Assembly: GCF_003150675.1 (NCBI RefSeq)
Contig: NZ_QGGB01000006.1
Span: 1-64,000 of the forward strand
Source of the DNA: Rhodohalobacter mucosus
Lineage (GTDB): Bacteria > Bacteroidota > Rhodothermia > Balneolales > Balneolaceae
DNA: 64,000 nucleotides
Direction of reading: 5' to 3'
Shown piece by piece: positions 25,293 to 60,145 of the stretch (position 1 is the stretch's first letter; each line of letters starts with the position of its first letter). The translations under genes and the position numbers were made by a program. The notes beneath the pieces were generated by a model that saw only the letters and a list, made by a program, of their open reading frames with translations, ran no database searches and had not been told where the DNA came from.

Positions 25293-25320
25293 AGGGGGTG
25301 CAGGGTCCAGGGTGCAGGGT
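25245..25320. repeat. Imperfect heptamer words, CAGGGTG type
   Basis: Units CAGGGTG, CAGGGTC and GTGCAGG flank the AAGCTT repeat and lead into the 77-base direct repeat. The word is the complement of the CTGCACC family near the window start. Confidence 0.7.
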
Positions 25321-25397
25321 GTAGTACTAAAAAATCCTTCTGAGATCGAAAATCAACAATCTCCAATCAGAGATCACCCTACCCTCTCCCGTCTCAC
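25321..25397. repeat. 77-base direct repeat, copy 1
   Basis: Nearly identical to 25568-25644 (two differences noticed by eye). Both copies are preceded by CAGGGTG heptamers and end in GTCTCAC, which starts the next array. No reading frame is shared. Confidence 0.8.
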
Positions 25398-25505: not shown

Positions 25506-25567
25506 CAGGGTCCAGGGTGCGGGGTACAGGGTTCAAGGTACAGGGTTCAAGGCTCAAGATACAGGGT
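25506..25567. repeat. Heptamer array, CAGGGTN type
   Basis: About nine in-phase units drift between CAGGGTC, CGGGGTA, CAGGGTT, CAAGGTA and CAAGATA before returning to CAGGGTG. Confidence 0.82.
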
Positions 25568-25644
25568 GTAGTACTAAAAAATCCTTCTGAGATCGAAAAT
25601 CAACTATCTCCAATCAGAGATCATCCTACCCTCTCCCGTCTCAC
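25568..25644. repeat. 77-base direct repeat, copy 2
   Basis: Second copy of the sequence at 25321-25397, again between a CAGGGTG array and a GTCTCAC array, so the duplicated module includes its flanking heptamers. Confidence 0.8.
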
Positions 25645-35392: not shown

Positions 35393-36088
35393 TTAACCTT
35401 CCGAAAAGGATTTGAAGAGAGTCCAGGGGGCTTTTTTTGGGATGTTGCCACTGAAATGTATGCTCTTTTTGAGAGTGGGATGGCTGAACTCAATTTCCCG
35501 GGCATGCAGGCAGATACCGGAAGCGTTTGCCGAGCCATATCGTGAGTCTCCCGTGATCGGATAGCCGTGTCCTGCGAGCTGCACGCGTATCTGGTGCGGC
35601 CTCCCGGTCATCAGATTAACTTTCAAAAGTGATTTACCGCACGCTTCACCCAGTTTTTGGAATGAGAGGCGCGCTTCCTTTGCACCGCGGGTATCCCTTG
35701 ATACGATACGCGTGATGTTCTTATTCGGATCCTTGAGCAGAAAATCATCCAGAAAACCGTTGGAGGGTGCGCTGCCCTCTACAATGGCCAGGTAGGTTTT
35801 TTTCAGTTTGCGCCTTCGAACCTGGTCGCTTAATCGGGATGCGGCTTTAGATGTTTTTGCAAGCACCATTACACCGCTAACGGGTTTGTCAAGCCGGTGG
35901 ACCAGGCCCAGAAACACATTGCCGGGTTTTCCGTACTCTTTTTTCAGATAAGCTTTGCACAGCGTGAGCACATCGGGTGTTGCGGTACGGTCTTCCTGAG
36001 AAAGCACACCGGACGGCTTGTTGATGACCAGCAGGTGGTTGTCTTCAAAGAGAATTTCAATATCGGGTTGTGTACCGGTTGTTTTCAT
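35393..36088 (-). CDS. RluA-family pseudouridine synthase
   Basis: This 231-residue protein has the catalytic RluA motif LVHRLDKPVSGVMVLAKTS with the Asp in HRLD, and GRPHQIRVQLAGHGYPITGDSRYG. There is no N-terminal S4 domain, consistent with RluA/TruC-type enzymes modifying rRNA or tRNA uridines. The exact target cannot be told. Its start lies 33 bases from the long heptamer array at 36121. Confidence 0.88.
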   Translation of the reverse strand: MKTTGTQPDIEILFEDNHLLVINKPSGVLSQEDRTATPDVLTLCKAYLKKEYGKPGNVFLGLVHRLDKPVSGVMVLAKTSKAASRLSDQVRRRKLKKTYLAIVEGSAPSNGFLDDFLLKDPNKNITRIVSRDTRGAKEARLSFQKLGEACGKSLLKVNLMTGRPHQIRVQLAGHGYPITGDSRYGSANASGICLHAREIEFSHPTLKKSIHFSGNIPKKAPWTLFKSFSEG

Positions 36089-36120
36089 TTTGTTGAAGTA
36101 GTAAGTGTTAAGTGAAAAGG

Positions 36121-36246
36121 CAGAAGGCAGAAGGCAAAAGTTGGTGGTTCGTTGTTAGTTGTGTGTTGCCAGTTGTCTGTACCCTGCTGCCTGCCGCCTG
36201 TGCCCTGTGCCCTGCCGCCTGTGCCTTGTGGGATGCCGCCTGCACC
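36121..36246. repeat. 18-unit drifting heptamer array
   Basis: Eighteen 7-base units run in one uninterrupted phase. They begin with CAGAAGG (twice), pass through CAAAAGT, TGGTGGT, TAGTTGT, GTGTTGC and CAGTTGT, and end in CTGTGCC, CTGCCGC and CTGCACC. First and last families share almost no bases, yet each neighbour differs by only a few. The array fills most of the gap between the divergent pseudouridine synthase and uvrC genes. Confidence 0.9.
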
Positions 36247-36306
36247 TGAATATAAACCTTTTATCCGGGGATGTGGTTTTCGTATTTTATTCCCGGAGTA
36301 CTGCCT

Positions 36307-38142
36307 ATGCCAATCAGTCTGGAAGAAAAAATATCCCATCTGCCGCTCAAACCCGGTGTTTATCAGTTCAAAGACAGCCGCGGGAACTATCTCTATGTAG
36401 GCAAGGCCAAGCGTCTCCGGAACAGGGTGAGATCCTATTTTCAGAGCTCCCGGAGCCATGACGGGCGCATTCGCCTAATGGTATCCAAGATTGAGGATGT
36501 GGACGTTATTGTTACCGACTCGGAAGCTGAAGCGCTGATACTGGAAAACAACCTTATCAAAAAGCATCAGCCCCGGTACAATATCATGTACAGGGATGAC
36601 AAGTCGTATCCCTACATTTGCGTTACGCCCGGTGGTCGTCCGCGCGTTTACCCGACCCGCACCATCATCCGTGACGGCAGCCGGTATTACGGTCCGTACG
36701 ACCATGTAGGCCATATGAGGCGCATGCTGGAGACCATCCGCAAGGCATTCGGACTTTGTACTTGTGCCGTATCGCCCAAGATGATAGACAAGTCGCGCGG
36801 TGCCCCGAAATGGCACTCCTGTTTTGACGACTATCTGAAGAACTGCTCGGGCGACTGGGACGAGGAGGTGTACCGCACAACCATTGAAAAGGTGGAGAAG
36901 CTTCTGTCGGGAAAAACGGACGATCTGATCCGCGAGGTAAAAGAGGAGATGCAGATTGCCTCGGAAGCGATGGACTTTGAGGAAGCCGCCCGCCTGCGCG
37001 ACAGCATGATCTCCCTGCAGAAGTACAATCAGAAGATGAAAATCGTTGCCAATAAGGATGTTCACCGGGATGTGTTTGCGCTTGATGTGGATGAAGAGCT
37101 GGGTGAAGCGTGCGGCGTTCTGTTCAAGATACGCGAGGGCAAACTGATCGGTAAATTTCACCGGTTTCTGAAGAATATTGAGGGGACTCCGCGCCCTGTA
37201 ATGATGCAGTCGTTTGTTGAGGATTACTATACAAGCCAGTTAGCGGGAGCCATACCTGATGAGGTCTATCTTAGTGATCCCATCGAAGATGACGGTCCGC
37301 TTCTTGAATATCTGTGGGAACAGAGAGGAAAAAAAGTGCCGGTGCTTGTTCCGCAAATCGGAGAGAAAAAACAGCTGATACGGATGGCGGTGACCAATGC
37401 CGGCCTCAATCTGGGTGAAAGGAAACTGGAGAAACAGAAAGCAGAGAAGGAGAGGATACCCCAGGCGGTAAAAGACCTGAAACAGTTTTTATCTTTGTCG
37501 AGGCTGCCGAGGAGAATTGAGTGTTTTGACAACTCCAATATTCAGGGATCGGACCCTGTGGCTTCCATGGTCTGTTTTGTTGATGGCCAGCCCAGAAAGA
37601 GTGAGTACAAGCGGTTCAGGATCAGAACCGTAACCGGTGCGGACGATTATGCATCCATGAAGGAGATTGTGATGAGGCGGTACAAACGAATCAAACGGGA
37701 GAAGCAGCAGCCGCCCGATCTGATACTGATTGACGGAGGCAAAGGTCAGCTGAATGCGGCGCTTGAGGGGCTTCGGGAGATCGATTTTGAGGGACACAGC
37801 GATGTGGCAGGGCTGGCCAAGAGGCTGGAGGAGGTATTTCTTCCCGGCAGGGCCGACCCGGTAATGATTCCAAAAACATCCTCTGCACTCAAGCTGCTTC
37901 AGAGGGCGCGTGATGAGGCACACCGGTTTGCCATCACCTACCACCGCAAAAAACGGTCGGACCGCACGCTAAAGACGGAATTGACCGATATTGAGGGAGT
38001 TGGCGACAAAACGGCAAGAAAACTGCTCTCGGAGTTTGGGTCTGTAAGCAAAATCAGGGAGGCCGGGATGGAAGAGCTGACCGATCTGCTGGGTGCCGTA
38101 ACCGGCGAACGGGTGTACAGGCACTATCGTGATGAAACGTGA
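36307..38142 (+). CDS. uvrC: Excinuclease ABC subunit C
   Basis: The ATG at 36307 gives 611 residues. The one at 36271 adds a non-conserved leader. The GIY-YIG nuclease domain starts at LKPGVYQFKDSRGNYLYVGKAKRLRNR. A UvrB-binding UVR motif follows (EEMQIASEAMDFEEAARLRD, ~205-225), then the RNase H-like 5' nuclease with FDNSNIQGSDPVASMV and DLILIDGGKGQL, and C-terminal helix-hairpin-helix repeats (DIEGVGDKTARKLL). It makes the dual incisions in nucleotide excision repair. Confidence 0.96.
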   Translation: MPISLEEKISHLPLKPGVYQFKDSRGNYLYVGKAKRLRNRVRSYFQSSRSHDGRIRLMVSKIEDVDVIVTDSEAEALILENNLIKKHQPRYNIMYRDDKSYPYICVTPGGRPRVYPTRTIIRDGSRYYGPYDHVGHMRRMLETIRKAFGLCTCAVSPKMIDKSRGAPKWHSCFDDYLKNCSGDWDEEVYRTTIEKVEKLLSGKTDDLIREVKEEMQIASEAMDFEEAARLRDSMISLQKYNQKMKIVANKDVHRDVFALDVDEELGEACGVLFKIREGKLIGKFHRFLKNIEGTPRPVMMQSFVEDYYTSQLAGAIPDEVYLSDPIEDDGPLLEYLWEQRGKKVPVLVPQIGEKKQLIRMAVTNAGLNLGERKLEKQKAEKERIPQAVKDLKQFLSLSRLPRRIECFDNSNIQGSDPVASMVCFVDGQPRKSEYKRFRIRTVTGADDYASMKEIVMRRYKRIKREKQQPPDLILIDGGKGQLNAALEGLREIDFEGHSDVAGLAKRLEEVFLPGRADPVMIPKTSSALKLLQRARDEAHRFAITYHRKKRSDRTLKTELTDIEGVGDKTARKLLSEFGSVSKIREAGMEELTDLLGAVTGERVYRHYRDET

Positions 38143-52009: not shown

Positions 52010-52098
52010 GAGTTGCTTGTGGTGGGTTGTCAGTTGTTGGTTGTTAGTTGTAGGTTGCCAGTTGCCAGTTGCCAGTTGCCAGTTGCCGGCCGTCAGTC
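52008..52098. repeat. Heptamer array upstream of paaG
   Basis: Thirteen in-phase units run from the paaG start codon outwards: GTGGGTT, GTCAGTT, GTTGGTT, GTTAGTT, GTAGGTT, then four GCCAGTT, GCCGGCC and GTCAGTC. Confidence 0.88.
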
Positions 52099-52207
52099 AT
52101 TGTTTTCCGCTCCCATTTCCACTGATTCAGTATATCATCGCCAAAAGTGATAGGGTTCTAAAGTGATAAAGTACTTAAGAAAAGGCACCGTAGCCAACAT
52201 GAAAGTC

Positions 52208-52291
52208 CTTTTCACTTTTGCCTTTTGCCTTTTCACTTCAATTAAATCGCTCATCGCTAGTCGCCAGTCGTCCATCGCAAGTCGCTCAGAT
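52208..52291. repeat. Heptamer array at the paaD stop
   Basis: Twelve in-phase units drift from CTTTTCA and CTTTTGC through TAAATCG, CTCATCG, CTAGTCG and CCAGTCG to CTCAGAT. The paaD stop codon (52286-52288) lies inside the last unit. Confidence 0.85.
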
Positions 52292-52801
52292 GCATTTAAA
52301 GTGTTCAAATGGCTGGTGGCAGTTGTTGCAGTAGTATTGCGATTTGCAGGCGGTGGAGCCGAATTCGCTTTGGAGCTCTGTATCGAAGGAGTCGCAGTAG
52401 GGGCAGGGGACCACCTTTTGGGATCCTTTCAATGACGTCAGAAAATCACTGCTTTCGTCGGTCTTTTCGGGCGGTGCGATGCCGTAATCCTTCAGCTTCT
52501 TTTTGGCGTGCTCGGTCATCCAGTCGGTGGTCCATGTTTCGGAAAAATCGGTGACCACCCGGAAATTCTCTACGCCTTTCTCCTTCAGCTTTTTGTGGAT
52601 CTCCATCTCGATCGCGTTCATCGCCGGGCACCCGGAGTAGGTGGGCGTGATCTTCACAACCACCGTATCGCCGTCCATCTCCACCTTCCGCACAATCCCC
52701 ATCTCCACCACGTTCAATACGGGTATCTCCGGGTCGATGACCTCTTCAAGCCAAGCCCAAATCTCGGATTTTTGGGTTGATGTGGGTTCTTTAACGGGCA
52801 T
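52286..52801 (-). CDS. paaD: Phenylacetyl-CoA epoxidase subunit PaaD
   Basis: This 171-residue protein has an N-terminal MIP18/DUF59-like domain (WLEEVIDPEIPVLNVVEMGIVRKVE, KITPTYSGCPAMNAIE) and a C-terminal zinc-ribbon-like region with CPYC, Cys and YYCNNCHQPFEHFKC. PaaD is needed to mature the epoxidase, probably through metal-centre assembly. The stop codon lies inside a heptamer array and another array begins five bases from the start. Confidence 0.9.
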   Translation of the reverse strand: MPVKEPTSTQKSEIWAWLEEVIDPEIPVLNVVEMGIVRKVEMDGDTVVVKITPTYSGCPAMNAIEMEIHKKLKEKGVENFRVVTDFSETWTTDWMTEHAKKKLKDYGIAPPEKTDESSDFLTSLKGSQKVVPCPYCDSFDTELQSEFGSTACKSQYYCNNCHQPFEHFKCI

Positions 52802-52805
52802 GAAA

Positions 52806-52861
52806 TGTTAGTTGTTGGTTGTTAGTGTTCAGTTGTGGGTTGCAAGATCGCAATTGGCGAC
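52806..52861. repeat. Heptamer array upstream of paaD
   Basis: Eight in-phase units (TGTTAGT, TGTTGGT, TGTTAGT, GTTCAGT, TGTGGGT, TGCAAGA, TCGCAAT, TGGCGAC) begin five bases from the paaD start codon. Confidence 0.82.
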
Positions 52862-52893
52862 TCAGAATTTTATTACTACTAATCTCATTTCAC

Positions 52894-53076
52894 TTCCTTT
52901 TGAGTGATCAAAAGGAACAAAAATCACCGGCGAGCAGATTATTTGGCGAAAGCTTCCTCCATTTCGCTAAAGAACATCAATGGTCCATCAAAATCATCAT
53001 AATTGATTCAATTTCACCGGTATGATGTTCTTTTTAACGCTGCACTCCGGAATCTTTTAATTCGCCGAATAATCTG
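52894..53076. repeat. Long-hairpin element, full copy A
   Basis: A perfect 10-base stem with GTGA loop lies at 52894-52917. A second, long imperfect hairpin follows with outer arms 52935-52950 and 53061-53076 (15 of 16 pair) and inner arms AAAGAACATCA / TGATGTTCTTT (52969-52979, 53023-53033). No coding frame exists. A second full copy is at 57758-57939. Confidence 0.82.
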
Positions 53077-53228
53077 CAGGCGGGGAATGAAGTGTGATCT
53101 ACGATGGACGATGGTTGATGTTTGATTTGGAATAGATCAAATATATCGTCTATTGACCATTGACCATTGACCATTGACTTTTTATAAATCAGAAGTCGCT
53201 CATCGCTCATCGTACATCACATATCCCC
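53077..53228. repeat. Tail shared by hairpin-element copies
   Basis: This segment follows copy A and recurs after the half copies near 58.77 and 60.02 kb. It includes three ATTGACC heptamers (about 53152-53178), GATGGACGATGG words and CTCATCG words. Confidence 0.78.
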
Positions 53229-53229
53229 T

Positions 53230-53261
53230 GGTTCTCTGTTCATCCGTTCGTCTGTTTCCTT
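53230..53261. repeat. Octamer array at the paaC stop
   Basis: Four 8-base units (GGTTCTCT, GTTCATCC, GTTCGTCT, GTTTCCTT). The last two bases belong to the paaC stop codon (53260-53262). Confidence 0.75.
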
Positions 53262-54048
53262 ACTTCCACTCCGCATCCGGGTAACTTCTTCGCAAAAACT
53301 GCATTTCGGCGAGGAGGCGGCCCAGGTGTTCGGTGTGCTGACCCGATCGTGCGCCGCTGTACATATACTGTTCGTCGCCCGGCATCGTGATCGTGGCTTC
53401 ATCGAGCGTTTCGCCCACCAGTTTCAGCCACTCTTTCTTTAATGACGAGACATCCGTGAAAAGATTGTGCTGAACGGCCGCATCGGCAGCTCCGTCCATC
53501 TCAAACATCTCCCCGGTGTACATCCACAGTTCATCAAACGCATCCTGCATGCGGCGATGGCTCTCCTCGGTGCCGTCGCCCAGGCGCAGCACCCACTCGC
53601 GGCTGTGGCGAAAATGGTACTGAATTTCCTTAAAGTGCTTGTTGAGCATGCCCCGGAACTGCTCGTCATCCACGTGTTCCGTGAGCTCCCTGTAGAGCAG
53701 GTAGCTGTAGACGCTGAACAGGAACAGTCGTGCAATAGTGTATGCAAAATCGCCGCGCGGCGGCTCCATCATGGCAATATTCTTAAAGTCGATATCGTCG
53801 CGGAAATAGGCGTAATGGTCCTCATCCGCTTTTCCCTCCAGCTCGGCCGCATAGCCGTAGAGCGAGGAGGCGTGGCCGATCATATCGAGCGCCGCGTTGG
53901 CCAGGGCAAGGTCTTCTTCAAGTTCGGGCCCGTGTCCGGCCCACTCCGATAGGCGATGGCCCAGGATCAGCCGGTCGTCGGCCAGCCGAAGCAGCATCTC
54001 AACCAGGGCGTCCTTTTTGGTACTCGGTATGGTGTCGAAGGTGGACAT
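53260..54048 (-). CDS. paaC: Phenylacetyl-CoA epoxidase subunit PaaC
   Basis: This 262-residue ferritin-like protein has LLRLADDRLILGHRLSEWAGHGPELEEDLALANAALDMIGHA and HFKEIQYHFRHSREWVLRLGDGTEESHRRM. PaaC is the non-catalytic structural partner of PaaA in the epoxidase core that epoxidises the ring of phenylacetyl-CoA. Gaps on both sides (262 and 458 bases) are filled with repeat arrays. Confidence 0.93.
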   Translation of the reverse strand: MSTFDTIPSTKKDALVEMLLRLADDRLILGHRLSEWAGHGPELEEDLALANAALDMIGHASSLYGYAAELEGKADEDHYAYFRDDIDFKNIAMMEPPRGDFAYTIARLFLFSVYSYLLYRELTEHVDDEQFRGMLNKHFKEIQYHFRHSREWVLRLGDGTEESHRRMQDAFDELWMYTGEMFEMDGAADAAVQHNLFTDVSSLKKEWLKLVGETLDEATITMPGDEQYMYSGARSGQHTEHLGRLLAEMQFLRRSYPDAEWK

Positions 54049-54054
54049 GTGTAG

Positions 54055-54152
54055 TTTTGAGTTTTGAGTGTTTGGTTTTGAGTGGGCGTGGGTTACGGGT
54101 TTTGAGTTTCGTGTTGCGGAATGTCAGTTGATAGTAGTTGGTTGTGAGTTGG
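54055..54152. repeat. Heptamer array upstream of paaC
   Basis: About fourteen units begin seven bases from the paaC start: TTTTGAG (three), TGTTTGG, TGGGCGT, GGGTTAC, then more degenerate words ending in TGGTTGT and GAGTTGG. The later units fit the 7-base phase less strictly. Confidence 0.7.
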
Positions 54153-54230
54153 CAACTTTCGATAATGTTCCGTGCCCTACACTTTTTCGGTTAATCTGTT
54201 GGTCAGTTGTTCTGTTTTTCTGTTTTCCCA

Positions 54231-54314
54231 GTCGCAAGTCGCCAGTCGCCAGTCACAAATCGCCGGTCGCAAATCACCCGTCTCACGTTTGACGTCTGAC
54301 GTCTGACGTCTCAC
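54231..54314. repeat. Heptamer array containing the paaB stop
   Basis: Twelve units in perfect phase: GTCGCAA, GTCGCCA (two), GTCACAA, ATCGCCG, GTCGCAA, ATCACCC, GTCTCAC, GTTTGAC, GTCTGAC (two), GTCTCAC. The paaB stop codon (54311-54313, minus strand) is part of the last unit. Confidence 0.9.
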
Positions 54315-54616
54315 TTCCTCTTTTTCACCGCTCTGGGGACACTATAAAACTGCGGATGGCGGTAGGGTTTGTCGTTGGCCGGGTCGAAAAAGGGTCCCGC
54401 GTCTTCCGGGGCGGAGGCTACAATCTGGTCGGACGGCACCACCCAGAAAGCAATTCCCTCGCTGCGCCGCGCATATGTGTCGCGCGCATTCTGAAGCGCC
54501 ATCTCCGCGTCAGGAGCATGAACGCTGCCCGCATGTTCAAACGGTTTGCCGTCCTTAGGCTGATAAAACACCTCCCAGAGAGGCCATTCATGTTTAGTTT
54601 CTGTCTGTTCTGTCAT
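54311..54616 (-). CDS. paaB: Phenylacetyl-CoA epoxidase subunit PaaB
   Basis: This 101-residue protein has the family sequence WPLWEVFYQPKDGKPFEHAGSVHAPDAEMALQNARDTYARRSEGIAFWVVPSDQI. PaaB bridges PaaAC dimers in the epoxidase complex. Its last codons (KKRK) are followed by a stop codon that is formed by a heptamer unit. Confidence 0.94.
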   Translation of the reverse strand: MTEQTETKHEWPLWEVFYQPKDGKPFEHAGSVHAPDAEMALQNARDTYARRSEGIAFWVVPSDQIVASAPEDAGPFFDPANDKPYRHPQFYSVPRAVKKRK

Positions 54617-54681
54617 TCAAATAAATATTTTCCGGTTAAGGCAGCCGGATGCATCCCGCCGACGTCCCTTCAGACACTTAC

Positions 54682-54729
54682 ATTCGTTAATTCTTTAATT
54701 CGTTAACACGTAAATACTTCAGTACGTTA
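54682..54729. repeat. Octamer array containing the paaA stop
   Basis: Six 8-base units (ATTCGTTA, ATTCTTTA, ATTCGTTA, ACACGTAA, ATACTTCA, GTACGTTA). The last three bases are the paaA stop codon (54727-54729). Confidence 0.78.
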
Positions 54730-57620: not shown

Positions 57621-57757
57621 ATTCCTCGGTTATATAAATATGCGGTGCATTAGATACGGAAGCAGTGAATAGTTTTGTCCGCACCGCATATCCAAAACCA
57701 ACCCGCAAACCGTCTCCCGTCTGAAGTCTGGCTTCTCAACACTCTTTACAAATCTTC

Positions 57758-57939
57758 TTCCTTTTGAGTGACCAAAAGGAACAAAAGTCACTCGCTGGCA
57801 GATTCTTCGGCGAAAGCTTCCTGCTTTTCGCTAAAGAACATCAATGGTCCATTTGGATCATCGCATTTGATACGATCTCACCGGTATGATGTTCTTTTTA
57901 ACGCTTCACTACGGAATCTTTTGTTCGCCGGATAATCTG
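57758..57939. repeat. Long-hairpin element, full copy B
   Basis: Same plan as copy A at 52894: a TTCCTTTTG / CAAAAGGAA hairpin at 57758-57781, outer arms 57799-57814 and 57924-57939, and inner arms 57833-57843 and 57887-57897. Loop sequences differ between copies while the inner arms are identical. Confidence 0.82.
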
Positions 57940-57984
57940 TAGGCGGGGTGGTACCGAGTCGTGATCATGAATTTCCCTTTATCG

Positions 57985-58552: not shown

Positions 58553-58607
58553 GTCTTGAGTCGTGAGTCGTGAGGAGAAAAAAACAGACGAACAGACGAA
58601 CAGATGA
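58553..58607. repeat. Heptamer then octamer array
   Basis: Heptamers GTCTTGA and GTCGTGA (two) at 58553-58573 are followed by octamers ACAGACGA (two) and ACAGATGA at about 58584-58607. It shows a switch of unit length within 40 bases. Confidence 0.75.
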
Positions 58608-58672
58608 ACGTCCAACCGAGAAAGTAGCATTCCGGAATATACATTCATATTGGCGTATAAGTCACTTCATCG

Positions 58673-58720
58673 GTTTCTCTGTTTCTCCGTTCATCTGTTC
58701 ATCTGTTCATCTGTTTTGCC
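58673..58720. repeat. Octamer array
   Basis: Six 8-base units: GTTTCTCT, GTTTCTCC, GTTCATCT (three), GTTTTGCC. The same array occurs at 59913-59968 with other point changes. Confidence 0.85.
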
Positions 58721-58721
58721 C

Positions 58722-58960
58722 GTTCTTTTTAACGCTTCACTACGGAATCTTTTGTTCGCCGAATAATCTGCATGCGGGGAATGATGTGTGATCTACGATG
58801 GACGATGGTTGATGTTTGATTTGGAATAGATCAAATATATCGTCTATTGACCATTGACCATTGACCATTGACTTTTTATAAATCAGAAGTCGCTCATCGC
58901 TCCCTTCGACTCCGCTCAGGGCAAGCATCGTACATCACATATCCCCTGGTTCTCTGTTCG
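58722..58960. repeat. Half copy C of the hairpin element with tail
   Basis: Right arm only (58722-58770), followed by the shared tail with ATTGACC heptamers. Compared with 53199-53215, a block of about 24 bases containing CTTCGACTCCGCTCAGG is inserted near 58898-58924. Confidence 0.75.
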
Positions 58961-58992
58961 TCAGTTCATCTGTTCATCCGTTCCTCCGTTTC

Positions 58993-59830: not shown

Positions 59831-59968
59831 AACCGACGAACAGACGAACGTCCAACCGAAAAAGTAGTATTCCTGAAAATAAATTTATATTGGCATATTA
59901 GTCACTTCATCGGTTTCTCTGTTTCTCTGTTCATCGGTTCATCCGTTCATCTGTTCTTCTGTTTTGCC
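59831..59968. repeat. Duplicate of the 58.58-58.72 kb block
   Basis: ACGAACAG words, a unique segment (TCCAACCGAAAAAGTAG to GTCACTTCATCG) and the GTTTCTCT/GTTCATCT octamers repeat the order seen at 58584-58720. Confidence 0.75.
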
Positions 59969-59969
59969 C

Positions 59970-60145
59970 GTTCTTTTTATCGCTTCACTACGCAATCTTT
60001 TGTTCGCCGGATAATCTGCAGGCGGGGAATGATGTGTGATCTACAATGTACGATGGTTGATGTTTGATTTGGAATAGATCTAATATATTGACCATCTAGC
60101 ATTGACCATTGACTTTTAAAAATCACAAGTCGCTCATCGGTTCAT
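59970..60145. repeat. Half copy D of the hairpin element with tail
   Basis: Right arm only (59970-60018), then the shared tail, with the ATTGACC heptamers reduced and altered. Together with copy C it shows that the unit being copied begins inside an octamer array, not at the element's left arm. Confidence 0.72.

Follow-up and report, generated by a model that had tools for sequence, protein, structure and literature searches.

The DNA analysed here, referred to as the window, is a stretch of 64,000 nucleotides from Rhodohalobacter mucosus (Balneolaceae; contig NZ_QGGB01000006.1 of RefSeq assembly GCF_003150675.1) and represents the first 64 kb of contig C6. The assembly comprises 3.9 Mb in 17 contigs (G000, 97% complete), and C6 was read over its whole length of 417,940 bases. 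Our subject is an intergenic tract of seven-base units between an rluA-family gene and uvrC. A preliminary description of the window had placed an array of heptamers between a divergent RluA-type gene and uvrC, and profile matches to TIGR00005 and TIGR00194 confirm both neighbours. The features of the locus are the following:

35393–36088, minus strand: RluA-family pseudouridine synthase gene (TIGR00005, 1.2e-53; 182 bits versus a curated cut-off of 193, thus slightly under it)
36096–36236 (end approximate), no strand assigned: period-7 tract (lag-7 segments 36096–36140 and 36140–36214; lag 7 best over 36097–36223)
36117–36140, plus strand: AAGGCAG word group (tandem-repeat finder (TRF) row 36117–36140), the commonest group elsewhere in the genome
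36140–36176, plus strand: GTTAGTT / GTTGCCA word group (from the unit list)
36177–36246, plus strand: CTGTACC / CTGTGCC / CTGCCGC word group (TRF row 36177–36246, period 21; last one or two units weak)
36249–36290, plus strand: conserved block upstream of uvrC, putatively its promoter (alignment of eight loci including this one)
36307–38142, plus strand: uvrC (TIGR00194, 3.6e-169, above cut-off)

The interval originally described, 36121–36246, was said to hold 18 heptamers without a frame slip, and this is borne out: all 18 units are in frame, and no 6- or 8-base slip was found inside the array. Its lag-7 self-identity is 0.639, versus 0.268 +/- 0.044 in dinucleotide shuffles, of which 0/5000 were as high. 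Self-identity is 0.56, 0.61 and 0.51 at lags 14, 21 and 28, respectively, and 0.18–0.36 at the remaining lags up to 30. Lag 7 beats lags 5, 6, 8 and 9 in each 14-base sub-window tested from 36097 to 36223. The final one or two units are weak, since lag 6 is better than lag 7 in the sub-windows at 36230 and 36237. The periodicity starts at 36096, ~25 bases before the interval first described, which falls mostly within the period-7 tract 36096–36236. The units had also been said to morph from one word to another. The gradient itself is real: neighbouring units differ at a mean of 2.53 of seven positions, versus 3.67 when the unit order is permuted (7/5000 permutations as low), and Hamming distance rises with unit separation (rho 0.505, 0/5000 permutations). 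However, the grading is not smooth. Neighbours differ by anything between 0 and 5 bases, and the segment finder divides the tract in two at the largest step, CAAAAGT to TGGTGGT. Three word groups joined to each other, AAGGCAG, GTTAGTT and CTGTACC/CTGTGCC, describe the tract better than a single smooth morph does.

Searching the genome with the tract gave 56 matches, mostly on its AAGGCAG part. Contig C6 contains 70 lag-7 segments (3600 bases, or about 167 segments per Mb) and 15 lag-8 segments, compared with at most six at each other lag from 2 to 13; a Markov random control for the contig yielded zero segments at lag 7 or lag 8. The tandem-repeat finder reports 83 rows in the window, many of them with period 7 or 8. 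Among the C6 arrays with at least seven units and at least three different words, to which the gradient test was restricted, rho is positive in 33/33 and p < 0.05 in 21/33, counts that are biased upward because the arrays were found by lag-7 similarity. Most of the C6 arrays of both periods (80/103) lie mostly outside open reading frame proxies, and the other 23 overlap such proxies, mostly short ones. Divergent, convergent and tandem gaps hold 19, 14 and 47 arrays and number 49, 45 and 162, respectively, which amounts to no preference for gene orientation.

Several local features of these arrays were also observed. In counts per 20 kb, arrays are clustered along C6, with 0–160 kb and 280–300 kb rich and 160–240 kb holding one. 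At C6 115345–115528 no more than 4 bases separate an octamer array of GAACAGAG type from the heptamer array of ACGAACA type that comes after it, and periods 8 and 7 therefore adjoin. At window positions 52026–54725, heptamer or octamer arrays occupy successive gaps of the phenylacetate (paa) cluster, among PaaG-like, PaaD, PaaC and PaaA genes. A dispersed intergenic repeat of ~200–300 bases, containing ATTGACC heptamers and TTCATCTG-type octamers, is found in the window at 52893–53256, 57757–57948, 58591–58974 and 59831–60139, its copies being about 86–87% identical. Finally, C6 386760–386960 forms a long hairpin with heptamer-array arms, AAGGCAG versus CTTCTGC (z -5.4 against shuffles).

The same interval was then compared among relatives. 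Of the 67 loci examined around uvrC, 51, including that of R. mucosus, show a divergent RluA homologue no further than 3 kb away; the 16 without a homologue in the right place were not counted. Eleven of the 50 other loci represent the same contig in two collections, leaving 39 distinct ones, and in three of these the interval is ~2 kb and may therefore hold a further gene. Among the 51 intervals, that of R. mucosus alone has a lag-7 segment (score 10), and none of the 39 distinct other intervals contains an array. Seven congener loci share with this one the block upstream of uvrC, just short of which the array stops. The tract therefore grew or arrived in the R. mucosus lineage beside a promoter-like block that array-free congeners also retain. 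The closest named relatives of its uvrC are from Balneolaceae metagenome assemblies and are at most 81% identical. Exact conservation of the tract in distant relatives was not found among those examined; the exact sequence is therefore not a conserved functional one, and a function for it is not indicated. One stretch of 25 bases in the GTTAGTT / GTTGCCA part (36151–36175) is 100% identical to a different locus of a congener (G011, contig C4, 172207–172231), a run that was found by searching with the tract itself.

Genome stretches of four congeners, taken at arbitrary coordinates, place this abundance in context. At score 12, no lag-7 segment is present in the sampled stretches of G011 and G004 (120 kb each) or G023 (80 kb); those of G011 contain one at score 10.5. 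The 80 kb of G022 hold five, among them a run of N. Because 320 kb of three congeners are without segments at the same score, the R. mucosus lineage underwent a burst of arrays. The AAGGCAR pattern AAGGCARAAGGCARAAGG (tripled or 18-base) has 90 overlapping matches in the R. mucosus genome, 18 in G022 and at most eight in each of ten others; it is thus present in 12/28 congeneric genomes and absent from 16/28, versus 2/28 with the reversed control. Across the phylum, 4/247 genomes contain the tripled AAGGCAG word and 3/247 its reverse. In another genus of the family (G080, 200 kb read), the arrays are near-perfect and ungraded, and consist of AAGGCAG and one other word only.

The arrays of C6 share a vocabulary. 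Of the 46 doublet words in this contig, 14 are found in more than one of 24 separated groups. They make up 88 shared pairs, whereas letter-shuffled words give 7.1 on average and at most 17 in 2000 trials. The words also tend to keep an order. A possible order was noted beforehand in the C6 discovery set (24 loci), and 20 further loci were then picked by AAGGCAG-type matches (anchor AAGGCA[GA]), with a minimum spacing of 5 kb from those already taken. Words of the CTGCACC group lie downstream of the anchor on the same strand at 8/20 loci, upstream at one and on the other strand at none; words of the TTGAGT group lie upstream at seven, downstream at one and on the other strand at two. If four arrangements are assumed to be equally likely, these orders (8/9 and 7/10) have probabilities of 0.0001 and 0.004; without the three loci that overlap places seen before (L193, L196 and L197) they become 6/7 and 6/8. 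In the discovery set, the two groups stand in the same order at 7/9 and 4/8. The order noted beforehand contained more groups than the 20 loci bore out. No clear order was found among them for the AGACGTC group (two downstream, one upstream), the GTTAGTT group (two upstream, one downstream, three on the other strand) or the GATGGAC group, and in the rluA–uvrC tract itself GTTAGTT is downstream of AAGGCAG, contrary to what had been noted. The word order that did recur fits copies of a composite repeat.

Some arrays flank a second kind of sequence, a ~77-base core (window 25319–25395) present at 18 places in the genome, some of which are local duplicates. An array lies within 100 bases of the core on at least one side in 16/18 cases and on both sides in 11/18, versus 20% and 5% for random intergenic points. 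A second copy in the window is at 25566–25642, and the words of the arrays beside the core vary among its copies. The core has matches in 3/27 other congeneric genomes, each of them short, and it is not at the rluA–uvrC gap, since 0/18 core matches lie near C6 36 kb. It is conceivable, although we consider it doubtful, that the heptamer units are modules of a propagating, non-autonomous small element that lays down a lineage vocabulary in preferred order and polarity at many unlinked sites, rather than independent slippage products. The order would then be TTGAGT group, AAGGCAG group and CTGCACC group, in places around the ~77-base core. In 2008 Elhai reportedly described small dispersed repeats of Nostoc in which a short core is embedded in heptameric arrays. 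Such a core within arrays resembles the ~77-base core of R. mucosus, which is absent from the rluA–uvrC tract.

Heptameric tandem repeats are a known class, and the tract has their 7-base unit, their intergenic position and many copies of its class in the genome. According to passages of MacGregor 2015 (PMC4679880), TAACTGA direct repeats occur in marine Beggiatoaceae, some Cyanobacteria and five Bacteroidetes, and at some of these sites the corresponding gap of close relatives is shorter and has no obvious repeats. The present arrays are like them in being intergenic 7-base direct repeats at many sites, of a kind scattered among distant lineages. Unlike them, as far as those passages go, the present arrays consist of many words that grade into each other and are not described as lying just upstream of starts; with 46 doublet words in C6 and graded units, no single exact word of the TAACTGA type defines them. 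The GGGAATC and GGGGA(T/C)T repeats of Xanthomonas and Nostoc are, in the relevant part of PMC4692102, likewise dispersed, intergenic and 7 bases long, varying in length and sequence between close relatives; their words, however, are G-rich and quadruplex-forming, and the word groups of C6 differ. Mrazek 2007, as cited in both papers, found heptamers over-represented among long simple sequence repeats and proposed slippage tied to a 7-base polymerase contact. That survey concerned repeats in general, and the passages citing it do not mention graded arrays with shared, ordered words. A literature search for Balneolaceae with 'tandem repeat' found nothing, and no title on graded heptamer arrays was found among the matches listed in literature searches, subscription literature being mostly outside their reach.

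Word sharing with other genomes was assessed as well. At loci chosen by matches to the tract, and therefore biased, eight words are shared with relatives versus a null of 0.65. An unbiased congener sample shares 2/5 words (null 0.27, 71/3000 as high), although its arrays are too few for this to carry weight and the five may include a run of N. In a BLASTN search of plasmids the tract matched 44 records weakly, at listed E-values from 0.5 to 6; Klebsiella accounts for 25 of them and cyanobacteria for 15. The vocabulary shared across phyla that these matches suggested was dropped, since ten 50-kb cyanobacterial plasmid stretches share two words, which is at the shuffled level (1.08; 897/3000 as many). 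In plasmids of Nostoc and Tolypothrix (L137, L138 and L140), heptamer arrays stand as inverted arms around short cores.

The tract probably belongs, in our view, to a large family of intergenic heptamer arrays that has expanded recently in one Balneolaceae lineage and is turned over by slippage. On our best reading this is a known kind of repeat, with a lineage-specific, partly ordered vocabulary, in a lineage that underwent a burst. Ectopic recombination, or the dispersal of short composite repeats, would have carried array DNA of a few word groups to many intergenic positions. There, replication slippage or unequal exchange may then have duplicated and removed units as a whole, with substitutions building up meanwhile, as the pattern of the arrays suggests and simulation reproduces. 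Neighbours would be more alike than distant units because already mutated units are duplicated, and the 7-base register would persist since units are gained and lost entire, small indels being rare. In simulations of unit duplication, deletion and substitution, mean rho was 0.24–0.30, with at least 0.505 reached in 6–11% of runs. Thus, grading needs no template or special enzyme, and the earlier assertion that slippage cannot create a graded series is not borne out. The unit turnover with mutation proposed in the same description is right in outline, being consistent with an array in 0/39 other loci and with a positive rho in 33/33 long C6 arrays, so that the initial interpretation is partly supported overall.

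Several observations weigh against this account. The gradient of the tract falls within the top tenth of simulated values, and copying between sites is inferred rather than directly seen. There is one returning frame excursion versus 797 mismatches, where simulations with an indel:substitution ratio of 0.06–0.1 predict about four; lag switches in the arrays comprise five from 7 to 8 and two to 6, and the one excursion returns to lag 7. This scarcity of indels is a weak sign of an enforced register, because the segment finder is biased against indels. Candidate causes of the richness also failed. A Y1 transposase is present in 25/28 genomes. MutS1 is over cut-off in 27/28 genomes, that of R. 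mucosus included, and SbcD is over cut-off in 0/28; with MutS1 present in R. mucosus and SbcD under cut-off throughout, neither explains the lineage difference. Reverse transcriptase was rejected as a cause as well, since it is found in 9/28 genomes and not in that of R. mucosus.

Among other explanations, each array could have arisen locally, slippage and mutation having extended a chance seed with nothing copied between sites, and the shared words would simply be sequences that slip easily. The simulations show that these processes suffice for grading, and most arrays of the window do have words of their own. We nevertheless regard a purely local origin as unlikely, since words recur between separated C6 groups far above the shuffled level (88 pairs versus 7.1), two word groups keep their order and polarity around AAGGCAG, and the AAGGCAR pattern (tripled or 18-base) occurs in 12/28 congeneric genomes versus 2/28 for its reverse. 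A selected binding or regulatory site, for instance one through which an RNA- or DNA-binding protein affects uvrC or rluA, would suit the position between divergent genes and beside the conserved promoter-like block, and passages of PMC4679880 propose such a role for other heptamer arrays, e.g. the TAACTGA repeats of Beggiatoaceae. This is quite improbable given that none of the 39 distinct other loci has the array and that divergent, convergent and tandem gaps are all occupied without preference.

It is very improbable that the tract represents the degenerate inverted arms of a hairpin or of an element like a miniature inverted-repeat transposable element (MITE). Although it passes from G-rich to C-rich words, and the C6 386760–386960 locus does form a strong hairpin, the tract folded as DNA is no better than its shuffles (z +0.60, 140/200 at least as good), for which reason a hairpin at the rluA–uvrC gap was rejected. 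Neighbouring arrays are often inverted in four Nostocales plasmid stretches that were chosen because they match the tract (9/22 pairs, versus 35/410 random pairs); in C6 the corresponding figure is 3/75, like that of random pairs (34/523). Templated synthesis, in which an enzyme with a 7-base template adds units, was the alternative offered in the preliminary description and agrees with the strict register over the tract. It is disfavoured, to the point of being barely credible: the 97% complete genome has no RVT_1 match (a search that did not extend to template enzymes of other families), several of the nine congeneric genomes (of 28) with RVT_1 are array-poor, period-8 arrays with other words lie among those of period 7, and C6 alone has 46 doublet words.

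Heptamer arrays are known from several bacterial phyla, and the sources, in the parts drawn on here, give no settled mechanism for them. What calls for explanation in R. mucosus is the vocabulary, shared and ordered, and the core embedded in arrays. Since an array-rich genome here stands beside congeners with none in 320 kb of arbitrary stretches, the cause of the burst can be looked for by comparing them.
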